Of a stretch of DNA of 64,000 nucleotides, positions 2,561 through 59,200 are shown in pieces. Source of the DNA: Mesaphorura yosii (lineage: Eukaryota > Arthropoda > Collembola > Poduromorpha > Tullbergiidae). Location: assembly GCA_009869945.1 (NCBI GenBank), contig WIXG01000105.1, positions 1-64,000 of the forward strand, in the 5' to 3' direction. How positions within the stretch are numbered: position 1 is the first letter of the stretch; each line of letters starts with the position of its first letter. The position numbers and the translations under genes were made by a program. The notes beneath the pieces were generated by a model. It saw nothing but the letters and a program-made list of their open reading frames with translations, ran no database searches and was not told where the DNA came from.

Positions 2561-4476
2561 GAATAGGAATTATTTGAGTTGGAAATCTGCCGGAGTTTTG
2601 ATTTGTTCAACTTTAACGAGCGCCATTTTTATATAGGTTCTTGAATCAAGGAGGAGTGTATTAAAAGATCAGCGGAATTCCCTACGTATAAATTGTAGTA
2701 TTAGAATTATGAACATAGTGAACTAATATAATAAGAGAAAGTAAGTTAAGCAAACTTCCTTATTTGCATATGCAAATCGAAATTCGACTAGGCAAACAGG
2801 CTGTACCTTTTTTTTTAGATTCGCCGAACAGATAGAAAATGTAAAAATGAGGAAAAGCTGGAGTCGAACGAAAAAATTTGGCTAACAAATTCAATTATAC
2901 GTCTACCGATTGGAATCTGAAATTGAAACGAGGGAGAACGACGAAGAATATTGAATTGTAAAATTCCAAAACCGGGTCTGTAATTAAAAATGTAAACAGC
3001 GCACGAAAATTCTGAAAAACGCTCTGCGGTGCCGCCATAGACTTTGAGCGAGCTTGATTTGAATTCGGACTGAATTTTACGGTAAATAGTAAATTAGTAA
3101 ATAAAGATTAGAAGTACTACAAAGACAAACATTCCTCAAAACGTAGTAATTTGATGACTGACTGCTCTTAATTGGTAAAAAACAGTCACAGTCCGTCATG
3201 AAGAGAGAAATAGAAATGAGTCAATAAATCGTTCACCGCCCCGCAAATGTGGTCAGAAAAGTTCCATGCAAAATTTTTCACGAAATACGAAAGTTTGTCG
3301 ACGCGGCGACGACGCATAAATAACTTAATTGAGTTACTTCGGCTTCAAAATTTCGCCGGCTAATTTCATAACTTCCTTGAACTCATCGTAATTTTAGTTC
3401 ATGGCCGTGGAAAAATTGGTGATTCATCTCTAATTTTTCAGACAGATTTTGGGCCTAAATAGACAGTGAAGAAGTAAATAGCAAATAGGCACATGATTAA
3501 CCGCAAGAAGGAGCCGATCGAGCGAGCGAAGAACAAAAAGTACCAAAGAAATGTCAACAACCACAACGTCGTTGTTCGGACTTTTAATTTTAATTGGCCA
3601 TCGCGTACAAAAGCCGTAGAGCGGCTCAAAGTTCAGTCGTAGTAAAAGTAAAGTAAAAGATAAGTAACCGATAAGCCACAGAAAATAAAGTGATTCGCAG
3701 TTCCTGCCCGCGCATTGCCCGCTCGTGCTCCTGCGTCGTTCTGTCAATTGCCAAATGCGTATGGAAGTGTGAACTTCCCGATCCTGTTTGTGTTTACAAT
3801 TTGCAATTTACGGTTTACGGTACACGATCACGAGTTGAACGTGGTTAAATGTGTAAAATATGAAAGCTGTGCTAATTATAGAGCTTAGAGCAGCGGCATG
3901 CCAAACCGCAAGACAGTAAAGAGCTGACAACTGAAAGCGTGTTCGTTTTTTTTGCAGTGCAGGCATTTGTATTTCTATTCATTAATGAATGAGGGAGCAA
4001 AGATTCAGCAGTGGCAGTGATTTTGACTCTAATTGCCTACTCTGCCTTATCTCAACGTGTAGCATGTGATTGACCGCTGAGAACGGCGAACGGCCGATCC
4101 ACCGATCCGATCCCTACGCCTGCGCTACGCTTTCATGCCCGGATGACTCATTTCATGCATGCGAAATGTTGCGGGAATTATCATAGCAAAAGATTGATGC
4201 AATCGCCAAAACTAACTTTAAAGAACTTAAAGTTGAGTACGGTTTTATTCAGACAGCTTGGACAAAGTAAAAGGCACAAAAGTATACAAGAACTATATTT
4301 GGAAATTGCAGTTGCAATGAACGGCTGAAACTCGGAACTTTGTGTCCGTTAACTAAATTCTAATTCGAGCACTAACTTACATTAACAATTGATAGGTGCA
4401 TCAGATTCAGGAAAACTGAAGCACTATGCACTTAGCTAGCAGTTAATAATCAAATAGGCAACTCGCAAATCGCAAC
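2561..4476. other. Intergenic: 3' flanks of two converging genes
   Basis: No coding region is recognised. It holds the 3' flank of the acyl-CoA synthetase, a palindromic octamer element at 2762-2777, and the minus-strand 3' flank of the BH3 gene with AATAAA (minus strand) at 4249-4244. Open frames here are short and show no family motif. Confidence 0.5.
2762..2777. promoter_or_regulatory. Palindromic double octamer (POU-type) site
   Basis: ATTTGCATATGCAAAT is a perfect 16-bp palindrome made of ATTTGCAT and its reverse complement ATGCAAAT, the classic POU/Oct octamer. It sits 200 bp after the acyl-CoA synthetase stop codon. Binding is inferred from the motif only. Confidence 0.35.
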
Positions 4477-5401
4477 TTACTGCCTGGCACAAAATAAAGC
4501 GACTCCAGCCGAGATTCCGATTCCGAGCAGCAATCCGCCAGCGCCGATTGTCTGGAGACGTTGACGACACTGATTCGGACTCCATCGGCGTGGATGTGGG
4601 GCTTTGTTTTGGCGGTTCTGCTTCTCCACCGTCGGCGGCTCGACTTCTTGCGCTTGTTGTTTCTCATATATGTGCTCGCGCTAGAATAAAATCAAACCAA
4701 GACAAACAAATCAAGTTAAAAGCTTACGTAACCGACTACCGAAGATTTGTTGTGTCTGCTTTGCGGTAAAGCCGTTTAATTTAACGTTTAACACGATTAC
4801 CACGAAGTAGTTCAATAGACTCTGCACTATAACTACGCTGGACGATTGGACTCACTGGACTACGATTGGAACGTCGACTTACGTGGTAGGAGTCGGCGAT
4901 TTCCCTCAATGCGATTCCAATATCGCGAAATGTAGTGTCTGGGTCTGCGTCTCGGTCTGGGACGACGTCGGGAACTCGGGCTCGGTTTGAATGGGAAGGC
5001 GAAGGCGATGGACTGGAACTGGAACTCTCTGTTTCTGCTTCTGCTGCTTCTTCGCCGCTGTTACTAATCATGCTCAGGACGAGTCCATCGAGCACGAATG
5101 ATTTGTCGCAGGTAAATGTAAATATGCTGGTGTCGACGCTGCTGTCGCAGTTGCTGCTGCTCCTCCTTCGCAGCTGCAATGGTGAAGGCGAAATCGTAGC
5201 AGCAGCAAATTGAGCTGGCGGAGCGGAAATTGGCCAAGACGACGGTTTCGGAGTTGCAACCACGATTTGAATCTGGACTCGTCCTTCACTTGGCAGCACA
5301 GGAGCACCATAAGAAGAAGAATTCACCCTTTCTGGAGACCGACGGTGGCGGTGCTGATTTTCGTCTCCAGCGTCGCTGTTTATGTAAAATGGAATTGCCA
5401 T
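4477..5401 (-). CDS. Candidate BH3-only apoptosis protein with C-terminal tail anchor, 2 exons
   Basis: Exons (minus strand) are 5401-4883 and 4680-4477, joined in phase 0 through GTAAGT and TTTTATTCTAG; the product is 240 aa. Residues 160-172 read DIGIALREIADSY, matching the BH3 pattern of four hydrophobic anchors (I161, L165, I168, Y172) with the invariant Asp (D170) after a small residue. The following segment (HREHIYEKQQ) also recalls vertebrate BMF. Residues about 217-237 form one hydrophobic Gly-rich helix (GAGGLLLGIGISAGVALF) ending three residues before the stop, as in tail-anchored outer mitochondrial membrane proteins. The remainder is Ser/Pro-rich and probably disordered. No BH1 NWGR motif is present, so it is not a multidomain BCL-2 protein. 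The ATG follows an in-frame TAG by two codons, and a likely acceptor lies just upstream, suggesting a spliced 5' UTR. By family knowledge it would bind prosurvival BCL-2 proteins at mitochondria. That role is inferred. Confidence 0.7.
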
Positions 5402-6488
5402 CTTCGTCTACTGAATCGGAGTCAGTGCGAATGCTCGGCGTAGACTTTAGTTTTAGTTTTTCTGAGCCCTGGATTCGGGTTTAGGTTTAGGCGCTGGAAG
5501 TATTAAGTAGTTACTTTTGTAGTAGTGAACAGTGGAGCAGTGTTCGTACTTGGTTTTCATTAAATTGAATGTGAACTCACTGCCGTGTTTAATACAAGCA
5601 TGTTTCTTGAACCTGGACTGACTGGAGGTTTGATCCGTTCGGAACGAGGTGTTGAGTTGAACTGTGAATTTGACACCCGAAGACAGGCCATTTTGAACCC
5701 TCGGCTGAAGTAAGCAGCCAAAAGACAGGCACATTGCTTGCTTGCTGGAAGATTGTCATCATCGTCGTCGTAATCATTTTCGAAACACTGGACTTCGTAA
5801 TTCGTAATTAGCAGTGTCAACAACTCATCCTCAATGCTTCCAGTGCGGTGGTGGCTGTTGTACTTGGTTTCCTTTCCTGTTTCTTCGCAGCACGCCGTAC
5901 GCGATACGCGTCGAGTCGATTGGGTGCAGGGTCCGGAAAAGCAGCTGGGCGAAGTTAAGCACGTCCCCGAAACCGCGTCCGCCGTCGTCGCGCAGTTTCG
6001 CCTTTGCCTTTGCGCAAATTCACGGCGCCCCATCCGCAATGGAGTGGATTCATACGAATTGCGAATGTATCACTTTCCCCTTTCTGCCTTTCTCGAAGAT
6101 TTCACGGCGCACATTAATAAATTACTGGTCAATGACACGCAAATCACATTATCGCAAATATGCGAATTATGTGACGCGAATGACGTCAGTTTTTGTTGAC
6201 AGCTGCCATTGTTTATTGTTGTTTCCGATTTTGAGGTTTCAAGCCTGCGATCTTGTAATTCGGGTCATAAACAGCAAATGTTGAAGTTATTCGATCAACG
6301 GACGTGTCATTTCAACAAAACAACATTTCAAAACAACACGGAAACGAACCATGAAACACCTTTAATTTAAAGTGGTTATTGGATTTTATTTAAATCATTT
6401 CAAACAACGTCCAGCTCTGGCTGAGACCAGCAAAATTCTATTTTCAAGTTTTTCGATTTGCAAATTGTAAAATATCAATTGTGAATTT
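5402..6488. other. Flank upstream of the BH3 gene
   Basis: This is the 5' flank of the BH3 gene and the 3' flank of the P450 pseudogene. It contains a perfect CRE at 6181-6188. A minus-strand open frame at 5560-6039 (159 codons, acidic run YDDDDD) could hold 5' UTR or an alternative upstream exon, but it has no family resemblance. Confidence 0.4.
6181..6188. promoter_or_regulatory. Perfect CRE palindrome (CREB/ATF site)
   Basis: TGACGTCA is the full cAMP-response-element palindrome, about 780 bp upstream of the BH3 gene start codon. It is a plausible stress-responsive (ATF/CREB) element for that gene, but its location relative to the transcription start is unknown. Confidence 0.35.
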
Positions 6489-8178
6489 TTACCGCTGCCG
6501 CTGCTGTTTCACAACGTCCACGTAAAACGGCTCGTACCTCACCACATAGCTGACCCGACCTTGACTTTGGCGACTGCATCCTCCCTGCTGCGGAATTTGA
6601 ATTCTTTCTGGAATCTGCACAAAATGACCTTCGGGACAAACAAGCCAAGCCTTGACCGATGCAGTTTTGGTGTCCGAACCCGAAGGATGTGAACGCGAAC
6701 GGATTCAGTGCCGGGTGAGTCGCGTTAAGCCTGTCGCCGTCCCCGCGGTCCCTGCGGAGAAAGCGTTCGGTGCGAAAAGTCTCCAGCTCTTTGTAAACCT
6801 CCGGACTTCGATTAGTAGCCCATGCTAGCAGAACGACGTTCATGCCCTTCTTGATGCGAATCCCTTCGTGTGACCAGTTTTTATTGCACATTCGCATCGG
6901 GTGAAGTCGAAGAACTTCCTGAATACATGCGCTCAAGTACGGCAGCTCCGCCAGGGCGTGTGCCTGAGCCTCTGCGTCGGAATCCACATCACTGGTGTGC
7001 GCGTGCATGCGATCGACTTCAGCAATCACGCGCTCCTGCACGGCAGGATTCTTTGCAAACTGATAAGCGAGCATGTTTAGCACAAGCGCCATCGTGTCGT
7101 AGCCCGCGATGAAGAGCGACCAGCCCATGGCGAGGACGGCGTCACACGTGATGTTCAATCGCCTATATTCAGGAGACCCGACCTTATTCATCATCGTCTC
7201 CAGAATTTCCACGAAATCGTTGTACTTTTGGCTTGGAGCCTCGAGTTTTTGCTTCCGCCTCGCCTCGATGAGATGCTCAAACATTTTCCCTACTTTCAGG
7301 AGCTCGGCGATGTCGGGCATGAAACACATCAGGAATTTCACCAGGAACGGAAATGATTCTGGAAAAACAGCGTGCGAACTTGAAAGTCTTTGCAAATTCC
7401 AAATTCGAAAATTTGGCATCAGCTTACGAAATAAGGTCGTTGTGGAATCAGGTTTCATTTTTTCGAAGACGAAGCGAAGACCATAAAATTGTTTGGGTTC
7501 TTTCGATCTTCGACGGACGCACGGAGAGAGCATTTGGATGCCATTTCGACGAGATTTGGGATCATGAACTTACATACAAGACCACATCCCAGGCGTAATT
7601 CGGAGGGCTGGCGAAGCACACATTTTTACATTGAACATTGACTTACTCTCGGACGTTCATCTTGACCGCTGTGACCCCGTCCTTAAATTCCTGGTGCAGG
7701 TCGCCAATGTATTCGTACGCCCATCACAACGAGTCCCAGCTGCTTAATTCGCGCCGACGTGAACATCGGAATCATGGCGGACCGCACCGTCTTTCACTTT
7801 TCACCCGGCATAAAGTCGAGCATCTCGTTCAGCAGATTGTTGCCCAATTTCATCTCTCGCCGGTCGTAAAAGTGATCGACATCCTTCACGAAGATCAGGC
7901 GCACCCATGCAGGGTCGGTGACGTACATGTTTGGGGCACGGCCTTCGTAGGCTCCCAAGACGGGCTAACCCACTGCAGGTCCTGGTCCTGGACGCATTTC
8001 TTGCAGGAGTACGGATCGCTGCCTAAGAAAAAATGGGGCGACACTACGGTGAAGCCGGCGGACTCGAGAGTGCCGTAATTCCAACGGGCGTAGACGACGA
8101 GCAGAACGACGACGGTGCAGAGACGAGGAGGGTCGAAACGGAGCAGTAAGCGAGGAGGGTCAGAAGCCAGGACAGCAT
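6489..8178 (-). pseudogene. Cytochrome P450 pseudogene (CYP3-clan-like)
   Basis: The parts run in order on the minus strand: hydrophobic N-terminal anchor beginning MLSWLLTLLAY (8178), VVYARWNYGTLESAGF, MYVTDPAWVRLIFVKDVDHF, then I-helix AGYDT, K-helix EVLR, PERF-like TERF, heme loop FGFGHQNCIG (Cys codon 6661-6663), and a C-terminus VVRYEPFYVDVVKQQ ending at 6489. The copy is broken. A TGA replaces an expected Trp codon at 7796-7794. The frame changes at about six places: after the anchor, before LGAYEGRAPN, after QLGLVVMG, around SVEDRKNPNNF, and twice after the heme loop. The heme-loop Arg expected two residues before Cys is Gln. Remnants of introns with GT/AG persist, so it is not a retrocopy. 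Flanking genes read cleanly, which argues against poor sequence quality. Confidence 0.85.
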
Positions 8179-18015: not shown

Positions 18016-18207
18016 ATGGCTCGTACCAAAATTATTAAGAAAAACGTGACGCGCCAGCATTGGTGGTGCCTGTCAAATGATTGTGGAATTGTAGACGATT
18101 ATGACTTCAGAGTAAGTTCCGCAGGTGAGCACTACAGAACTTTATACAAAAAAAGGTTCAAAAATAATCATACCAGCAAATCCTGTATTTGTTGTTCTTG
18201 CTGCTGA
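18016..18207 (+). CDS. Small ORF, possible first exon
   Basis: An ATG at 18016 opens 32 codons (MARTKIIKKNVTRQHWWC...) that end at a perfect GTAAGT donor after DYDFR (from about 18112). Read through, the ORF is 63 codons and runs into the Gln-rich repeat. I recognise no family. It may be the first exon of a gene continuing into the block to the right, or chance. Confidence 0.2.
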   Translation: MARTKIIKKNVTRQHWWCLSNDCGIVDDYDFRVSSAGEHYRTLYKKRFKNNHTSKSCICCSCC

Positions 18208-18281
18208 ATTTGCTGTCGAAGCTGCTAAATTTCTAGACCAAGCTGCTGATTATCTTCCTGAAGCTGCATTATTTCCTGTTC
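18172..18281. repeat. Gln-rich coiled-coil-like repeat, copy A
   Basis: About 110 bp starting ACCAGCAAATCCTGTATT, repeated with divergence about 305 bp to the right. On the minus strand it reads as heptad-like Gln-rich peptide (LQEDNQQLGLEI then QLRQQIQQQEQQIQDLL) interrupted by a TAG that the second copy shares. The shared stop means the copy was made after any coding function was lost, or that this strand was never coding. Confidence 0.6.
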
Positions 18282-18404: not shown

Positions 18405-19403
18405 TTGCGACACTTATTGTTTGACGATGGATTACACTTCGCAGACAAAAGGGTACTGAGTGGAGTACTAGCAGGATACCAGCAAATCCTATATTTCTTA
18501 TTGCTGCTGTTGAATTTGCTGTCGAAGCTGCTAAATTTCTTAACCAAGCTGCTGATTATCTTGCTGAAGCTGCTGAATTTTGCTGTCGAAGTTTCTGAAT
18601 TTTTTTCCCGCCTTAATTTTTGCGGCAATTCCAACTCGACATCTTTGAACTGCTTGACTGGAAAACCGCTCTTACTGCTTGACATGTACGATCTTCAGGC
18701 AAATGTTGGCCATGTTCCGTGTAACAAAAGACACCTGCTGATTTCTATTTCCTTGAGATTGCACGAGGATAGGTTAACACGTGTCAAACATATCGACCTT
18801 GCATTTTGCAATTTGGGCATCCCTTCTCATGCTCGCAGTATTTGTGGACTGGTTGGCTGTATGACAATTTGTGGGTTTTGTATTATTGTACGTAAACTCC
18901 ATTTGCCGATTCTATGTGAAATTAAGCACGCACGACATCGACTCGGTTGGGATCAGCTGATCCACGTGTACCGGCAACATGGACTCCTTAACAACTATGT
19001 GATGTGTGAAATCAGGGACGTGGTTGGCTTAGCAATCACGTACAATGCTGCGATTCAAATATTTGGGCTTCTTCTCCTCATCGGTCTCCATGACAAAGTT
19101 GGGCTCATTGTGGCGGGTGAAACTGGGATTACAGCGTGCATTGCATTTGTTCTGACATCGGTTGCTATGCATTTAGCGAGTGAAGTCGGTGTTCTGTCCA
19201 AACAATTCTTGCATATAGCTCGATCATATGCACGAGAGCTGACTGCAGTGCAGCGTAAGACACTCCGTTCGTTAAGATCAATCTATATATTGTCAGGGTC
19301 ATTTGTACGAATCAAACGTCATACATTTATTAGTATATTTAGTGAAGTCGTACTTCATAATGTACTTGGTCTACTTATTATGTCCAAAAGTTCTAAAACT
19401 TGA
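18405..19403 (+). CDS. Chemoreceptor-like 7TM ORF, probably partial
   Basis: This single open frame has 332 codons. The first 65 or so overlap the Gln-rich repeat and are probably not native. The C-terminal half looks like an arthropod gustatory/odorant receptor: a hydrophobic span AITYNAAIQIFGLLLLIGL, a second (GITACIAFVLTSVAMHLA), a polar loop with KQFLHIARSY, then RSLRSIYILSGSFVRI followed by a final hydrophobic span FSEVVLHNVLGLLIM. Such families end with a loop of this type and a TM7. The usual insect TYhhhhhQF signature is absent, which fits a basal hexapod receptor or a decayed copy. The true start and any upstream exons are unknown, and the N-terminal helices are missing. A receptor assignment is inference from topology and local pattern only. 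Confidence 0.4.
   Translation: MRHLLFDDGLHFADKRVLSGVLAGYQQILYFLLLLLNLLSKLLNFLTKLLIILLKLLNFAVEVSEFFSRLNFCGNSNSTSLNCLTGKPLLLLDMYDLQANVGHVPCNKRHLLISISLRLHEDRLTRVKHIDLAFCNLGIPSHARSICGLVGCMTICGFCIIVRKLHLPILCEIKHARHRLGWDQLIHVYRQHGLLNNYVMCEIRDVVGLAITYNAAIQIFGLLLLIGLHDKVGLIVAGETGITACIAFVLTSVAMHLASEVGVLSKQFLHIARSYARELTAVQRKTLRSLRSIYILSGSFVRIKRHTFISIFSEVVLHNVLGLLIMSKSSKT
18477..18590. repeat. Gln-rich coiled-coil-like repeat, copy B
   Basis: This second copy begins ACCAGCAAATCCTATATT. It shares long blocks with copy A, such as AATTTGCTGTCGAAGCTGCT. On the plus strand it supplies the Leu-rich first part of the ORF at 18405-19403, so that part of the ORF is likely an artefact of the repeat. Confidence 0.6.
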
Positions 19404-22146: not shown

Positions 22147-25100
22147 TTAAACGACCAGAAAATTCTTCTTGCGCTGCTTGATTTCCGTCTTGGGTGTGTG
22201 CGCCTGGGCGTGGTTGGATGCCTGATGTGCTTCGGCAGTCGCAGCGCCGGAGTGGTGACCATCGCCAGACGACTCGTCAGAGATCGAACCACCATTCATT
22301 CCATTGCCATTTCCATTTGACGGGTGACTCGCTGCCGCTGCCGACTGCAGGTCGGAGGAAGTTTGGTTCAGCTGGCGGTCTTTGATATAGCGATCGACCA
22401 GAGCCTGAGTGTGCGAGTCCTCCGCGTCCAACGCAGTTGCAGGAGCGCCCGTGGAGGGTAAATTATTTTCAAGAGATCTCTGAATTAAGAAAGCAATAAC
22501 AGTAATTACAGTATAATTATTGACTACTGCCTGTAGGTTGCAATTTATTTGATTACTGTCCTCACCTTTCCAATCACTGCAATCGGCACAGTTCCGGTAA
22601 CTTCAGCCACTTTTTGCTCAACCAAGTAAAACATGTACTCGTCGTACAGAAGTCGGAGAAGGTGAAAAGACCCAAAACTGGCCGCGCTTCTTAAAGTGAG
22701 ATCCCGAATGATGAGAGAACTGCATCGAATCGAAGTGGTGAAATAGGAAAGTTATACTTCAGGACAAAAACGAGCTTTTCTAACTTGAATGACAAACCTG
22801 TAGAAAGACCATTTCAGGAGGAAATTTCTAGCGACTTTGAGAAAGTTGCCAGAATTCAAGTGAGGACGGAGAATTCTGTTCACAACTCCTTCAAGCCAGT
22901 GAGCCCACTGCTCGAGAGACTGCTGCTGGGAAAGCGTGGCCTTGAAATCTGCCTCGAGATCAGGGACGAGATCGCCATCGCATCCGCAAACCCACGCAGC
23001 CTATAATTTGCCAAATGGACGTAAACAAAATATTTCTAAACTCCCGATCTTGTCTCGATGATTCTTCACCTGCTCTTCGACGTTATGAAAATCGACGCGA
23101 TTGAGATCAGTCAGCATTTGGTTGATTTGAGTCTGATTTTGCAGCACAGCTCGGGCCGCCTGGGCCAAATGATTCAGCGAAGTGTAGCGACGCAACGTTT
23201 GCGCCAACGAATTGACGATCGTGACTTTGGTGGTGATCATGTCATCTGGAAGTCCAACCATAGCAGTAGCCAAATTACCTTCTAAACCCTTTGCAAAGTT
23301 TCGAATCGCTTGAGTCATCGTGCCTAAAGAATAAGAGAATTAGCCTTCAAATCTTGTCACTCAAATCTGTCCAAAATCCGTGAATTACTTGGAATTGGAC
23401 GCAGCACATCCGGAAGTAGGATGGACACGATGCTTTGGTAGAAAAGATAGTCTGCATCCCGTACGAAATGTTGAACTTCTTCTGTAGCACACAGCAACTG
23501 AAGCTTGGACCTTGAAAGAAGAAGAAACGCTTGCAAAAATTCTGCAACTTGTATTCACGAATTTATTCAATTTACCTTGAAATAATATTGTCGTACGGTT
23601 GTGCTTCGGCCCCTTGACTTTCACCAGTTCGCCAGAACGTTTTCCAGCGTTTGTCCACATCAGCCAATTGAAAGTTTACGATATCCTCCAGTAAAAGCTA
23701 CAAACCAAAAAGTTAGTTTACTGCCATAAAAATAGTATAACACAATGCGATTAATTAACCTTTACTAATTACCAACCTCACAGTGCTCGCGATACAAACT
23801 GTGGAAGAGGAGGACGTCATTTGGAATCAAGCCTTCCGGTAACGGAACGCCGAAATTCAAGTCAGGAAACTCCTCCAGCGCATTGCTCGGGTCACCCATA
23901 TATTGCTGCACGGCCGCCGTATCAGCTGTCGAGAGCCCGTTTGCGAGTTCGCCTGGTTCAGATTTGAGAAGCTTCGCTTTCTTGCTGGCGCTGGGCGCGT
24001 GATTGCTGCTATTGCCGGCTGGAGACGTGGACGGCACCACGCTGTGACGAGATCCGTTGACTGGAGGCGTGCTGGCGTTGGTGGTCGCCGTCACTGCCGT
24101 CGTCGACGCCGAGTGGCCATTGCTGTTGTGATGTTGATGTTCTACTTCCTCGAAGTGATTGAGAGGAGAGGAGGGCTTGAGACGAATTCCGTAGTAGTGA
24201 TACTTGGAATTTCCTCTTGTGCCCAGCCGCCGAGTCCGTAGCCCCAAGAAAACTGACCTTATCAGTTTGCCAAACGATGCCGCATTGACGGGATCCAGTT
24301 TATGCTCTTGGCAATGCCTCAGATAGTGGTAGTAAAGTGTCGAGCGAGGGAGGCTCACGCCTTCCGCTGTTTCGTAATTGTCCATGAGCCACTGGACCTG
24401 AAAATCGGGCAGGGCGAAGGCTTATCAAAGTCCGATGCTTATCGATTAATTGTTAATTTTCAGGTTACGGTTACGCCACAAACTTAAACCTCCAGCGAGG
24501 CTTACAATTACTAATTACGGATTTCGCTTACCAACTTTCATCGCTAAATTCCGCAGCTAATTCGCAAATTATGCTAGTTGCTAATTTCGTAGCTTGTACT
24601 TACAGTAGCTGGAGAAACTCTTGTTGCGTGAGATAAACTAGGCTGTGAGTCACTGTCCATGTTAGTAGATGCGTTAGAATTGGAGTTTACGGCTGAAGGG
24701 ACGAGATATGCAACTCCACCGTCCTGATAAAGTGTTTCTTTATGAGCATTATTAATTACGATTATGAAGTCTTCAGTGCTTGCTTGAAGAAAAAGATGCT
24801 CGTGTCTCATGTGCAAGAATCGAACGAAAACAAGAATCCCGAGTACTTAAAACATAAAATCTAGCCCAAAACAATGCAAAAACAAGGTTTCGAATCTATT
24901 TGCATTGCAAACTACTTGATTGCAATTAATTTTACTGTTTAAATATCATGCATAGTAAATTTCAGCGTTTCAGCAGACGTTATCAGTGCAGCGCGTCGTG
25001 AGTCTGAAATAAACACAAAAATATTTGCTAAATGATACCTTCTAACGACAACGAACATACATAAAATAATAGAATAGCAGTACTTAAATGAACGTAAAAG

Positions 25101-45801: not shown

Positions 45802-47044
45802 CTACAGCAAGTATAAATGCTGAGTCAGCCGTTCGTCTGCCGCCGAGCTGTTGAGGGCCATGCCAGCCAAGTACGCGAGCTTCTTCGCGTACTGACACAC
45901 CGCCAGGACGCTGACGCGCCCGCTCCAGTTGAAGTACAAGTGCGTCAGTTTGTACGTGAAATGCTGGAGCTTGTCAGGCGCCTGGCCCTACTGATCGAAG
46001 AGGACGTTGTACGCCGTCGGGTTGACGGTGCCTTGCTTCGCGCGCTGGGAGACAAGATAGAAGTCGAAGCGTTCGGGCAGCGTGACGGCGTCGTCGAAAA
46101 TTGTTCCACATTGGATTTTGTCGGTGGGGGGATGAAGGGAGAAAGAAACGCATGTTGATCCGTTTGTTTACGACGATGAGCGTGAATTTTGGCGGTGGCT
46201 GATTGTGAGAGCCGTAAAATTCCGTCAAACCCTCCGAAAGGATGACGCAGCGTCAGAAACGAGAAGCGACTGGACTGTTGCGCCTCGCCCAAAAAGCAGA
46301 AAACTTACCTTAATCGCTTGGACCTCGACATATTATATTCACGTATTAAGCTGGCCTTCGCCAACACCATCGCGATACAGAATTATTTGGTCTGGAAGCA
46401 TGCCGTCATTCACGTTATGGTAGTTGTTCAGGCACTCTACGAAAGCGAAAAATGGCACGAATCGCGAAAAAAGGTTAAATTTTAAAAATTTCGTACTTCG
46501 TAAAATCCGGATTGGTGGTGGCGACCATCGCCCCCACCGTCTCCTCTTTCGGCCCCCGTCGTTGTTGTGCACGTCCAAGCTGACAACCATCACCTTCGAA
46601 CCGTCATTCTTGTTCACGATGCTCCACGGAATCCCACCAAGCTTGGCGTTCATTTGCACCACGACCTTGGTAGCGATAGACTTGAACCGTTTGCTCTTCA
46701 TGTTATCGGCGATGAGAGTGCAAATTTTGGTAAGTAAAATGAATCATTTTACGAAATTACTTAAAATGTTAATTGGCTTAGCTTGTGTGGTCAATAAATG
46801 CACGCTTTTTCACAGCTCTCCAAATATCCATATCTTTTTATTTATCTTTGTTGTGCAGAATGACAAACACAAGCTGCAGATGCGTTCTGTTCTGCTGAAC
46901 AGCCTTGTCGACATCTTCCGTGTAAGAAACGATGTCTGAGTCCCGAATTTTGTTGCTGCAAGGTGACAAGCACAGCACAATTTGTCCAATATTGATGCTT
47001 GAAACAGACGAATTAGTCAACGATTCCTCCCATTTGCATTGCAA
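45802..47044 (-). pseudogene. Piwi-clade Argonaute pseudogene (MID/PIWI part)
   Basis: The minus strand carries Piwi signatures in order. A MID-like segment (HLQLVFVILHNKDK, then AVKKRAFIDHTS) is followed by LIADNMKSKRFKSIATKVVV, QMNAKLGGIPW, VMVVSLDVHNN (first catalytic Asp), LYRDGVGEGQL (second Asp), KFTLIVVNKRINMRFF, DDAVTLPERFDFYLVSQRA, KLQHFTYKLTHLYFNWSG, CQYAKKLAYLAGMALNSS and a C-terminus HLYLL with stop at 45802. The copy is broken: stops follow the HNKDK segment, two lie just after GQLNT, one lies after NVLFDQ, and the frame shifts after VHNNDGG and after RQNP. Intron boundaries survive (AAG|GTAAGT near 46307), so it is an unprocessed partial duplicate. N-terminal and PAZ regions were not found. 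In animals Piwi proteins use piRNAs to silence transposons. Confidence 0.85.
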
Positions 47045-53000: not shown

Positions 53001-56000
53001 CCAATTCGAATTGGAAACGAAACGAACGAGAATGACACACTTTTTTGGACCTTTTGAGAGATTTTTCATAAATTCGCGCGGTGCGGCGCGTGGCGCGACG
53101 GGCCGTGCGTGAGCACGCATGAAAAGAGCCTCGAAATGCACGCGAACGCGTGCGTACTGATTCCTCTTTCGCCATCGCGAGCTTGGATCTTGCTCGTGGA
53201 GAGACAAGAGACATTGTAAATTTCATGAATCTATAAAAGAAAAGGGATTATGAGGCTTTTCCCAGTTTTAAAACACTAAAACGCATTTTACTGCGTGCCT
53301 GCCTGCTTCACAATTCACGAACACGACCTGGCACAGGCACGGATCCATTCACAGGCTCATTGCTCATTCTGTGCCACGGCACGGGCACGGCGAATGCGAA
53401 TAGGCGAATCTGCATGCTTTTGCTTTCACAGTGCCTTGCTTTGCTGTGCGAATCTAATAAAAATCTTGAGATGTGTACGTATAATTTATAAGACCGTGCT
53501 TAAAATATTCATTCATTTTTATTATTAGATTACGATGCGTCTCGTCGGGTGCGGGTGTTGTAGCATTTTTTCTTTGAAGCTGTGCTGTGCTGCCAATGGT
53601 GTCAATGTGTTTCTTAAGTTTCTTCGTCTGTCAGTAGAAAATGTCACAATACTGAAAGACAGGCACAAGGTACGCCCACACATATTTGGAAATGAAGACG
53701 TTCCCAGCTTGATTGTCCCGTCATTCTTCTGCCTACGCACGCGCCACGCGTGCGGGACAAAGCAAAAGGCAGCCTGAGTTCGAGTTCCAGCCGTCTTTTT
53801 AACATTTTAACAGTCGGAGGAAATGAAAACGTGACTTTCATTGGAAATTCGGTGGACGAACGCTAAAAGATGAAATCCCATGCTCAAAACGCACGTTTTT
53901 TAAAAGTGAGAGTCAGGAGAAATTCGCAGTCCGAATGATCGTTTTTTGCAAATTATTCGCAATTCGCGAGGGTAAAAACTGAATTTTCGTGGTCGCACAG
54001 AGTTTTCAATTACCAATGTCGGTTGAAGTCATTTGTATTTTTCTATTTTCACATTATTATCAATTAACCCTCGACAAATTCCAAGGGGATCCCACCCGTG
54101 CGATGCGATGCGCATAAATTGAGTCAAATTGAGAAGTGTGGACACGAAATTTTGGTGTCCTTCATCATCGTCGCTCAAGATGCGTTGCGGAATAGCCTCC
54201 TGTCTGACTTGGACTCATTACCTCATCTCGTCTAGCAGCAGCCTAAAACTGACGCGAGTGACACTGACACCATGCCGGGCCTCACATCTCAAGATGATAA
54301 AGTGGTGGAGACTCAATTATGATTGTTTTCCTGAAGTAATGAAATTTAAGAGATGAATTATTGAATTATAAAGCAGGCGGTGCCCGCCCACGGCGGCCGA
54401 CGCGGTTTCAAGCCAGGCAACATTTGCAACGGCTTGGCTCTGGGAAGTGTCTTCCATAATGAAATGACGAAGAAGATGAAGATGAAGGAAGATAATGAAG
54501 AGCTGCCGCCGCCGCTGGCACAGGCAGGGAAAGCCTCTGTTCTACTCTGCTCTGCGAGGAAATTAATCAAGAAGTGTCTTAATGTCTTAAGTAGACGCGG
54601 CCACGCGGCGGCGGTTGCGTGGGGTTCTTGTCTGGCTCGTAATTACGATGCTCGTACAAGAATTCGAACAAGTTTGCGTGCGTTACGCGTTGCGTTAGTG
54701 TGCGCATCTGTGCCGTGCGTGCGCCTTGTGTGAGAGAACAACGTGATAAGATTTTTAAAATTCGCAGTCGCAGTCGCCGATTCAATTGCCATTTCTCTGG
54801 AGCCAAGCTCGAATTGTTAGAAACTTGACACAAGACACAAGACGAGAAAAGCAAAGGCAAAAGTTGGCCTCCCGGCATCAGTTTCCTTAAATTCTTTAAT
54901 TCTGTCAAACAGAAAAACGATAATTTATCCCTTGAGGGATTTAACCCATTTTTCCTTTATCTTTCGGGCCACCGTGCCGTGCCGTGCCGTGCCGTGCCGC
55001 CATTTTCGCATGGCATCTTGCGAGCCCGGAGCGACTCGCCGACTTGTCGACTTGACAGAAATGAATTCCCGACTGATACGATACCGGGAGACGAGACAAC
55101 AAGTTTGCGAATCGCAGCCTGAGTGGCATGACTTTTATACCCGCATTAGGCTTTTAGTGTCCCCTCGAGGCGGAGGCGAATCGAGTGCGCCAGAGATCAG
55201 AGACGCTGATAGAATTAGATTCGCCTTTCGCCGTCTTCGGGGAACGCGGACAGGCCGACTTCCTGACTCCTGACTTGACTTGACATGGCAGGTTGGCAGC
55301 CTTGTTGATAAAACAAAGGAATTATGAATGACGAGCCTACAGGCACCGGCTCTGGCCCGCCTGGAAAATGGGCTCAGATCAGATGGAGTCAGAGTTCATC
55401 AGGCAAAGAAACTGGCGCGACGCGCGAGAGCACGAATTTTCAAATCAAATCCCAAGCGGATACGCAGATTTGTTCCTGGAGCAGTACGACAGATGAAGAA
55501 TTCTATTTTTCAGTGCTCGGCTTGGCGCTCGGTTATTTATTCAGGAGGCAGTTGTCAAGATTTGCAGACTTGCTCTCGGTCGTCCAGGCCATGACCATAA
55601 ATATTCCATTCCAAATGATCATGTCTTATTTATCTAAGCAGTAAACAGTGAAGAGGTGCTGCACGGCTCCCTCCGACTTACCTACAACCATCATGTGGCT
55701 GCTCTGAACGGCCGTTTGGAACGCAGGTGCTTCTCCGCTCACTTCGCACTTGTAAACCCCCGACGCACTGAGCCCCACGTTCTCCAACGTGACGACGTTG
55801 TCAGTCGAATTTAGCAACTGCAAAAACAAACCACAACCGCAACAAATCAATTAGTCATCTGAGCCACAGCCACAGGCTACAGGCAGAGCCTACAGTTTGA
55901 AGTCGTTGGTCTGACGGAGATTAAGAGCTTAATCTTATAAGTCGGTGTGTGGCAATCAATTACAATTACTTACGTTGACTGTGAATCCTGGCAGATCAAA

Positions 56001-56243
56001 CGTTTGAGCTGGTGGATTATCACCTGGCAGAAATCTGTAAAACTCCTTTCCGTCCTTGTACCACTTGACAGAGTACAGGGCTTCGTTCTCCAGGTCGTAG
56101 TGACACTCCAGCCGAACGGGTTGTCCGTGTATTGTGTAGCGGGGAATACGGAGACTGGCAAGGCGCACCATCGAGACTTCTGAAAATGAGCACAAGGACA
56201 AAGCAAAACAATTAAGAAACGGTGAATGGAGAACGGCAGCCAT
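50025..56243 (-). CDS. beat: Beaten-path (beat) family immunoglobulin protein, 6 exons
   Basis: Beat proteins are Ig-domain guidance molecules that pair with Sidestep-family receptors in motor axon steering. Minus-strand exons are 56243-55974, 55817-55682, 50992-50859, 50793-50710, 50611-50458 and 50158-50025, giving 303 aa. The ATG at 56243 follows an in-frame TAA and starts a moderately hydrophobic leader (FLNCFALSLCSF). Ig1 shows VRLECHYDLENEALYSVKWY and SGVYKCEVSGEAPAF; Ig2 shows GGRPRYGIDDIVRINCTSAR, LVWHINGE, IIDEHGLETAVLGL and FYWRTNEES. The last exon is Ser-rich and then hydrophobic (IINFLLLGFVLLRLCLLV) with an eight-residue tail, suggesting membrane or GPI anchoring. A 4.7-kb intron separates Ig1 from Ig2. 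The acceptor-like TTTTCAG before 56179 leaves open a separate upstream signal-peptide exon. The beat subclass is not determined. Confidence 0.9.
50993..55681 (-). other. Large beat intron (4.7 kb)
   Basis: This intron lies between the Ig1 and Ig2 exons. No nested gene recognised; the 127-codon plus-strand frame at 52241-52624 has no motif. It contains a GCCGT tandem run at about 54972-54999. Confidence 0.5.
54972..54999. repeat. Tandem pentamer (GCCGT)n
   Basis: Five to six head-to-tail copies of GTGCC/GCCGT within the large beat intron, a short microsatellite. Confidence 0.8.
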
Positions 56244-59200
56244 CAACAATTACGCCTACTACGTCAAATTACCTACGAAAGATAAGAACTATGCTGAATG
56301 CCGAAGTAATTAAAGATACGAAGCAGGTAAAAATGCACTAATCTCTAACGGATGTACTAGCCGGGCATTTAAGACTCGCTCGCCGGCGTGTCGTGTCTTT
56401 TTGTTACCTCTAAACATTAAACCAATTAAGGCAAATGAGAATTGTTTTATAGTTTCTTAAATCTATTTCAGGTACCACCAACTTTTCGCATTCAGACTGA
56501 GCGAGTCGAGGAATGCGGAATGTCAAGGCTCAGGCAGGCATGGAAGCTGAGGTTCGTGTAGTCTGCATTCAGAAGTCATGTACGGTTAATTCCAAGACCA
56601 GAAACTATCACGCGCCTGTGAATCGTAATCGTAATCCATTCTTCAGCGTGGACGTGGACTATGGACCAACTTTTGTCAATTAATTTTAAAATGAACCAGA
56701 AAAAGCCAACTCTCGCTGCTAAAAGCCGGCCTTGTCGTGGCCAAAGAATGAATGGAAGAAAATATGAGGAAGAAAGCGACGACGAAGAACACAAAAGAAA
56801 ACTTTTAATCCATTCCTCCTCGACTCGGTATTGCGAGATCAACCCACGCCACGCTTACTTTCTTCTTGGTAAGTACGGCGACGACAAAGCAGTAAATTTT
56901 GTGCAATTTAGCAGTTTAAAAAGGAAGCCGTGGCCGTGGTCGTGCAAGAGATGAACATTAAGATTAACAGCAGCGCGGTGAGTGAAAATATTATCATTCT
57001 TAATACAATGACAATAGCGATGATCCATTGTTAGCTTTATTTTGTACTTTATCATTTTTGTGGAATCATTTTTCTTCACAAATCTTTATCTTGTCTTTAC
57101 AGTTTACTTTCGACTTTTACGCTCGTGTACACAATATCCGACAAGCTCCAAAACATGAGGGCAAAGGCCAAGTCAGGCGGGGACGAGTGGACTCAGTTTA
57201 CAGTAATTAGGCCGAAGTCAAGCGCCAAGCCGGCCACGTATTCTTTGCAAGTTTGGCCTTTTACTAGAAAAGTTGCGGATTTCTTGTCGGTTTTAATTTT
57301 ATGCGAGCGGGTTCGCTCGCCTTCTTCGTTTTCTTTCAGGAGCGCGAGCGGTAATTTATATTTATGGTACCCAAGCAGCGATGGCCACGCCACGCTCAGG
57401 AAAGACAAAAGGCTAAAGGCTCGGGGTGGCGTCATAAGGAGACGAAGCCACAACGCTCGGTAACTCGGCAGTAAAACGCGGTGGAGTGGAGTCGAGTGGA
57501 GACTGCGCCAGAAAGGTAATGGGCCATATTATTATGATGATGGCACTTTGGAGACAACAAGCCAAGACGGCGGCGGCCTCCTGACAAGATGCAAGATACA
57601 AAAATGAAAACACAACTTTCACTTTCTTAAGGCAGGCATTTCAAAATTTTATGTCCGTGCCTGCTTTGTAGCCCTGAACGCGGGCCGCGTTTTATGTTCG
57701 TTCTTTCTAATATACTTTGAATTATGAACCCATTCAACAACATTAAAAAATACACATTTCAGAGTACGGAAAACGGCGTGGGCTCGGGTTTATTATTGGC
57801 ACTTCCCAGCGACTGCGGCCGTGGCTGGAGAAAGTGAATTCAGGCTCCAAGATTCCGAGCCAAGGCTGACGAGCTCACCTGGTTTTTATGCTCGCGCGCC
57901 GCGCACGCATTTCACACTCAATACACTTGTCACTCAGCGACTCAGCAGCCTTTTTACTGCCGGTCGCATAAATATCGCACGTAAAATTATTATAGCCCGC
58001 ATTTGAGTACGCAAGAGCAAGCACAAGAGCAAGTTTTTAATAAAATAATCCATTACACGTACAGATGACAGATATTCTAACAGCATCTAACTTCATGGTT
58101 AAGAATGATAGCTTGAATTGTTTGCAATCATTTCAGCGGAGTTCACGACCGTCGTCCTTTGCATTTACAATAAAATGCATTCGGAATTGCACTTTCACCG
58201 TCGCGTCGTTAGAAACGCACTGGCACTCGAAAGTGCAGCGAAATACCAAGCATGTAAGCAAATGACTTTATTTAAATGTCAATGCACTTGCTGACTGACT
58301 GCTAATTCTTTGCTTTATGCTTCCTCGTCGTTTCTTTCATTTTTGTATGGCTTGGCTTGCTATAGACAGCATTCCGCAACTGCAACCAATTCCAAGCTCC
58401 GAGCTGCGGTTTGGCTGAAATTCGGGATCCTGATAGGAATTCCAGCTACGCATTCAATAAATTCCAGGCGGGCCAGGCACGGGCAAGACAAGCGACAGCA
58501 CAAAACAAGGCTCGAGCAGGTCACAAGTCACAGGCCTCAATTGTGCTTTGTGCATCTAACTTGACGGCTGCTGATTTGATTCAGGGTTGGGTTATTAATA
58601 AGAATACCAAAGCTCCAAAGCTGAATGTTTCGTTGCCTGAATAGAATTCCTGCTATTGCCTTTGCCTTTGAGAATTGAGAAGTAAATCATTCTCTCCTCA
58701 ATCACAATAAATTCCGAGCCAGCCTGTCTGCCGGCCTGGCCCAAATTACACAACCACAATAAAGTAAAGCACACACAGTTGTAAAATCAAAGCCGCCGGA
58801 GCCTCCAAGTTGCCAGCCAAGTCAAGTTCAGTGTTCCGGTTGTTTACTGTTCACACATCAGGAATCAGAGTCCCACGAGCCAAGCCACCAGCCCAGATTT
58901 TTCTACAAGATGAATTTCATCTCATTTCCTAAACGTGCGGCGTACACGGCAAGGATTGTATTTTCAGCGCGTGCAATTACGATTACGACAAGACTACTTA
59001 ATAAAGTTAAGGAAAGGTGAGCGGCCAAGAATACATTTCCATTTACAAACTTGGATCTTGGCAGTGTAGAAGTGTAAACGAAAGGGTAACAGGAAATGAG
59101 AACCAGGGCCAAGTCAAGTCAAGACTGAAAGGTAAATCCCAAGTGTCACGTACGTACAATTTGTTACGCTGTCAGAGAAAGTGAAAAGAAAACACGGCAG

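Follow-up and report, generated by a model that had tools for sequence, protein, structure and literature searches.

Among the described BH3-only proteins, BIM, HRK and BIK share the layout of the candidate considered here, with one BH3 followed by a hydrophobic C-terminal segment. Their BH3 identity to the candidate is nevertheless low (5/24, 3/22 and 3/23 residues, respectively), and no match to their Pfam families was reported for it. The BH3 of PUMA (Bcl-2-binding component 3) is closer, with 8/24 identical residues and the pattern I-G-x-x-L-R-x-x-A-D common to both proteins, and that of BMF, with 9/24 identical residues around the BH3 Leu/Asp, is the closest of the nine BH3s compared. EGL-1 of Caenorhabditis elegans, an ecdysozoan BH3-only protein, has I-G-x-x-L...D in common with the candidate, but only 4/23 residues are identical and no Pfam match to it was reported.

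In arthropods such proteins were called very sparsely documented in a preliminary description of the locus, which agrees with the excerpts available from two papers (PMC10107002, PMC8998228). The second, a 2022 survey, records BH3-only proteins from C. elegans but from neither insects nor the remaining branches of the nematodes (PMC8998228). Among the matches listed for the open-licence literature, which are partial texts, Sayonara (CG14044) of Drosophila is the sole arthropod BH3-only protein, and none is a tail-anchored arthropod BH3-only protein. Sayonara is, like the candidate, an arthropod protein with one BH3-type motif; its excerpted description gives a length of 378 aa, two coiled coils, membership in family PTHR21974, and a BH3 which is predicted in Muscomorpha only and which its authors consider to have arisen within Diptera, and the word “transmembrane” is absent from the paper (PMC10107002). 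The candidate, in contrast, is S/P-rich, ends in a hydrophobic tail and carries a different BH3, and no coiled-coil family was matched in it by Pfam; if real, it would differ from Sayonara in architecture. Partners of the BCL-2 type do exist in arthropods, since ticks have Bcl-2 and Bax homologues, for which the BH3 domain is reported in the excerpted text to be key to their interaction (PMC8336254).

The candidate lies in a stretch of 64,000 nucleotides, the whole of which is referred to here as the window. The reading preferred in the present work, to which about an even chance is given, is that the locus is a host gene for a BH3-only-type, tail-anchored protein that would dock into the BCL-2 groove at mitochondria. 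Its features are as follows.

4883..5401, minus strand: exon 1 (coding, 173 aa), an open frame with an S/P-rich region and a BH3-type helix at its 3' end
4681..4882, minus strand: intron of 202 nt, phase 0, GTAAGT...TTTTATTCTAG, with splice consensus and in-frame stops inside
4477..4680, minus strand: exon 2 (67 aa and stop), with the post-BH3 segment REHIYEKQQ, a linker and the C-terminal anchor
4244..4249, minus strand: AATAAA polyadenylation-type signal, 227 nt past the stop codon
4883..4924, minus strand: BH3-type motif DIGIALREIADSYH, residues 160-173; BH3 matrix rank 1, HMM score weak
4486..4551, minus strand: putative tail anchor TIGAGGLLLGIGISAGVALFCA, residues 217-238, then RQ and stop (Kyte-Doolittle; predicted helix)

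Exon structure and coding potential

The coordinates, two exons and 240-aa product given in the preliminary description were reproduced, and the strand, which it did not state, is the minus strand: splicing of 5401-4883 to 4680-4477 produces a 240-aa frame. This frame opens with an ATG at 5401 in the context GACGAAGATGG, which an in-frame TAG precedes by three codons, and closes with a stop codon at 4479-4477; the donor CAC/GTAAGT at 4882 and the acceptor TTTTATTCTAG/CGC at 4681 are both good consensus sites. Read-through of the intron gives a product that has the BH3 and lacks the anchor. The good splice sites and start context and the presence of a polyadenylation-type signal argue against the possibility that the locus is not protein-coding at all and is merely an open frame downstream of a P450 gene with fortuitous splice sites. 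The other long frames in the window argue in the same direction, since among the six further stop-to-stop frames of at least 200 aa, four hold Pfam-confirmed exons and one is antisense to such an exon, while the sixth (18405-19400) has no Pfam match.

The codon score bears on this question from both sides. The frame used ranks best of six in exon 1 and in exon 2, and the exon 1 score of -0.014 is exceeded by only 3/74 control segments (median -0.226), these controls being best-of-six-frames segments from position 25,000 on that include a few real exons. The score is high but inside the control range, so that coding potential is supportive of the gene and is not proof of it; this weakens the BH3-only reading. 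The modest codon bias of exon 1, the S/P-rich, low-complexity character of the sequence and the fact that no homologue was found in viral and prokaryotic collections are what a non-coding origin would have in its favour, and with the evidence on both sides considered such an origin is judged quite unlikely.

The search for relatives covered viral contigs, where 19 pattern stretches yielded no confirmed related locus, and prokaryotic genome contigs, where 81 stretches likewise yielded none; because these were the collections searched, the result says nothing about animals. There is no second copy of the gene in the window (apart from the gene itself, the best tblastn match is at E 0.95), and searches for RNA families and NCBIfam families gave none. 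An antisense or other-frame artefact was considered by scanning ten frames (the exon 1 read-through, eight alternative frames in or close to the locus, and one from elsewhere), and was rejected, the sole match being a sub-threshold one to CCDC84 (E 0.11).

The BH3-type segment and the C-terminal tail

The BH3-like helix was placed immediately before the splice in the preliminary description, and the motif does indeed end at the junction. Its positions are filled by I161, L165, I168, A169 (the small residue), D170 and Y172, in agreement with the pattern h1-x3-h2-x2-h3-small-Asp-x-h4, and the helical hydrophobic moment is the highest in the candidate protein. The motif was evaluated using an ungapped matrix and a profile HMM, both built from the same 11 known BH3s. 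By the matrix, the site tops all 60,511 17-mers in the six frames of the window: the unspliced 17-mer scores 16.2, the best in the window, and the spliced one 15.1, compared to 13.8 for the next other site. The known BH3s score from 11.8 to 29.0 in leave-one-out evaluation, with 1/11 falling below the 15.1 of the candidate. The chance rate per position is 2.35e-6 at average protein composition (47/20 million) and 1.9e-6 at the candidate's own composition (38/20 million), which corresponds to 4e-4 to 5e-4 over a protein of the candidate's length.

The profile HMM is less favourable. The candidate scores 3.0 bits, a score reached by 11/1,373 window segments and by 87/20,000 shuffles of the candidate protein, and in all 11 leave-one-out models the known BH3 outscores it (10.5-30.0 vs 2.7-8.2 bits). 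An alignment with hhalign gives a BH3 match at residues 156-183 with P 0.0012 and a probability of 20%. None of the 11 BH3s used has a Tyr at h4, and none has Ile-Ala directly in front of the Leu. A PDB sequence search with the candidate segment gave no matches at E up to 10; in the calibration of the BH3 profile, the names among 60 of its 163 PDB matches listed were those of the BCL-2 family or EGL-1, except for two designed foldamers. The motif thus beats chance by the matrix, and only weakly by the profile HMM. The “textbook” BH3 claimed at the outset does have the four hydrophobic positions and the Asp, but the word is overstated because the HMM score is weak, and a fair statement is that the motif looks like a good BH3, short of textbook.

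Motifs of this kind must also be weighed against their abundance, since more than 10,000 human peptides match L-x-x-x-[AGS]-D according to the excerpted text of DeBartolo et al. 2014 (PMC4072508). The commonness of such strings, the weak HMM score, and a predicted helix that extends to residue 182 are consistent with a real small tail-anchored protein which has some other job, as a membrane adaptor, tether or fission factor, and in which the BH3-like helix is due to chance or is amphipathic in the manner of a coiled coil. On the other side, the protein matches no further Pfam family, and the spacing, the Asp and the small residue all fit a BH3, as does the rank of 1/60,511 by the matrix. This explanation is less probable than the BH3-only one, though it carries appreciable weight.

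At the other end of the protein, residues 217-238 constitute its sole strongly hydrophobic segment, two residues from the C-terminus, as would be expected from the hydrophobic C-terminal helix that had been proposed. The best 19-mer has a Kyte-Doolittle value of 2.01, which is reached by 11/931 ORF ends in the window, the candidate's included. If the matrix rate is multiplied by the tail rate, approximately 0.1 chance cases per 20,000 ORFs result, a figure which assumes independence and is uncorrected for the choice made in the preliminary description. The architecture suggested there, BH3-only with a tail anchor, holds at the level of gene layout, BH3 spacing and hydrophobic tail.

A single-sequence AlphaFold2 model has a mean pLDDT of 42.3, with values below 50 for residues 1-179, and at this low confidence it predicts helices at 154-182 (the BH3) and 208-239 (the tail), together with three short strands (6-8, 42-51 and 89-98). 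The charge-hydropathy index is +0.078 for residues 1-150, which is on the folded side; it is -0.251 for 151-212, and taken over 1-212 it is -0.018. The protein had been called disordered, and the pLDDT of this single-sequence model over residues 1-179 and the index for residues 151-212 agree with that description, while the index for residues 1-150 does not. No recognised folded domain overlies the BH3 by Pfam. In the excerpts of DeBartolo et al. 2014, the full-length proteins with strong Bcl-xL signals, Bim and C6orf222, are disordered or predicted to be so, and most of the other BH3-like peptides sit within folded domains (PMC4072508).

Comparison with BMF

Against the 24,736 families of Pfam at E up to 10, the sole match of the candidate is to BMF (PF15185), at residues 146-178, and there is accordingly no match to a BCL-2 fold or to another BH domain; matches above E 0.1 are for the most part discarded by the HMMER filters in such a search. 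The BMF match itself is below threshold, as it reaches 12 bits (E 0.14) where the curated cut-off is 27, and the exon 1 read-through alone, which contains the BH3, matches no Pfam family at E up to 1. The segment that follows the BH3 shares HRxH....Q with BMF, and in its nine residues 4/9 are identical (P 0.007 by identity and 0.0003 by BLOSUM against shuffles, uncorrected, with three families tested). No such likeness is found to BIM (0/9) or to PUMA (1/9), from which the candidate differs in this segment.

BMF has a dynein-light-chain motif of TQT type, and no TQT motif is present in the candidate protein. The tail of BMF also differs from that of the candidate, whose hydrophobic anchor is at the extreme C-terminus; an anchor in that position resembles HRK, BIK or BIM more than BMF. 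Furthermore, scores of the size obtained here cannot establish orthology, because BMF itself retrieves BIM in the PDB at E 0.17 at best. The label “BMF-like” is supported by the sole Pfam match and by the post-BH3 likeness, and is not supported by the sub-threshold score, by exon 1 alone or by the TQT motif. Membership in the BMF family fails on the score and on the absence of that motif. Within the preferred reading, it is very unlikely that an arthropod has here retained a true orthologue of vertebrate BMF; the only Pfam match, the best identity among the nine BH3s and the resemblance after the BH3 would speak for this special case.

Proposed role and genomic context

The BH3-only reading is favoured because the two-exon frame is sound, the BH3 ranks first by the matrix and has the highest moment, the tail is hydrophobic, the sole Pfam family is a BH3-only one, the two helices in the model coincide with the BH3 and with the tail, and no folded domain is found over the BH3. 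It is weakened by the HMM score, the commonness of L-x-x-x-[AGS]-D strings, the low pLDDT, the lack of PDB matches and of a relative in the viral and prokaryotic collections, and the unusual Tyr and Ile-Ala. Under the BH3-only reading, the protein would be held by its tail in the outer membrane of mitochondria, a mode of anchoring that many BH3-only proteins have and others lack, and the S/P-rich N-terminal region would receive regulatory input such as phosphorylation. Following the known mechanism of BH3 binding in the groove, on which the docking and effector steps proposed here are based, the BH3 segment would become helical and occupy the groove of the species' BCL-2-like proteins, with its Asp paired with their conserved Arg, and this docking would release or activate a BAX/BOK-like effector.

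A broader and rather unlikely possibility is that a BH3-only trigger of the BIM/BMF type with a tail anchor, be it a BMF orthologue or not, survives overlooked in an arthropod lineage. The three-part BCL-2 switch (guardian, effector and BH3-only trigger) would then be ancestral to arthropods, and flies, in which Sayonara arose, would have lost or replaced it. If a conserved anchored BH3-only gene were detected in another arthropod, the retention of an ancestral mitochondrial apoptosis trigger by arthropods would become testable.

The neighbouring genes identify the host as an animal, because exons for an AMP-binding enzyme, P450, gelsolin-repeat, ABC1 kinase, RFX, TRAPPC13 and Piwi, all above their Pfam cut-offs, share the window with a G-gamma exon that is below its own. 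The arthropod host assumed from the start is supported mainly by an exon at 55959-56249, minus strand, which encodes a Beaten path-like Ig domain: its best matches are to Beaten path Vc (E 1.4e-10) and Beaten path Vb (2.7e-9), and a further 23 chains with E up to 1 follow, led by titin at 3.1e-5. The Beaten path family is not known from outside the arthropods or their close kin. A further exon may lie beside this one at 55629-55850 (V-set, E 0.054).

Several other features of the window may be recorded. The Cytochrome P450 exon at 6478-7569, minus strand (Pfam E 6e-38), has a frame that seems to break shortly past the heme-binding stretch, with apparent C-terminal pieces in other frames, so that assembly errors, decay of the gene or an intron may be involved. 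A similar 21-base unit is repeated in two short arrays, at 18200-18249 and 18506-18602, the latter inside a plus-strand frame of 332 aa that matches no Pfam family, and the minus strand reads as glutamine-rich pieces with stops. The Piwi-domain exons lie at 45805-46167, minus strand (Pfam E 1.5e-9 and 3.7e-11), and their best PDB match is “Protein piwi” (E 1.6e-13). Antisense to them, at 46018 on the plus strand, is a BH3-like string with a matrix score of 10.3, which shows how easily such strings arise.
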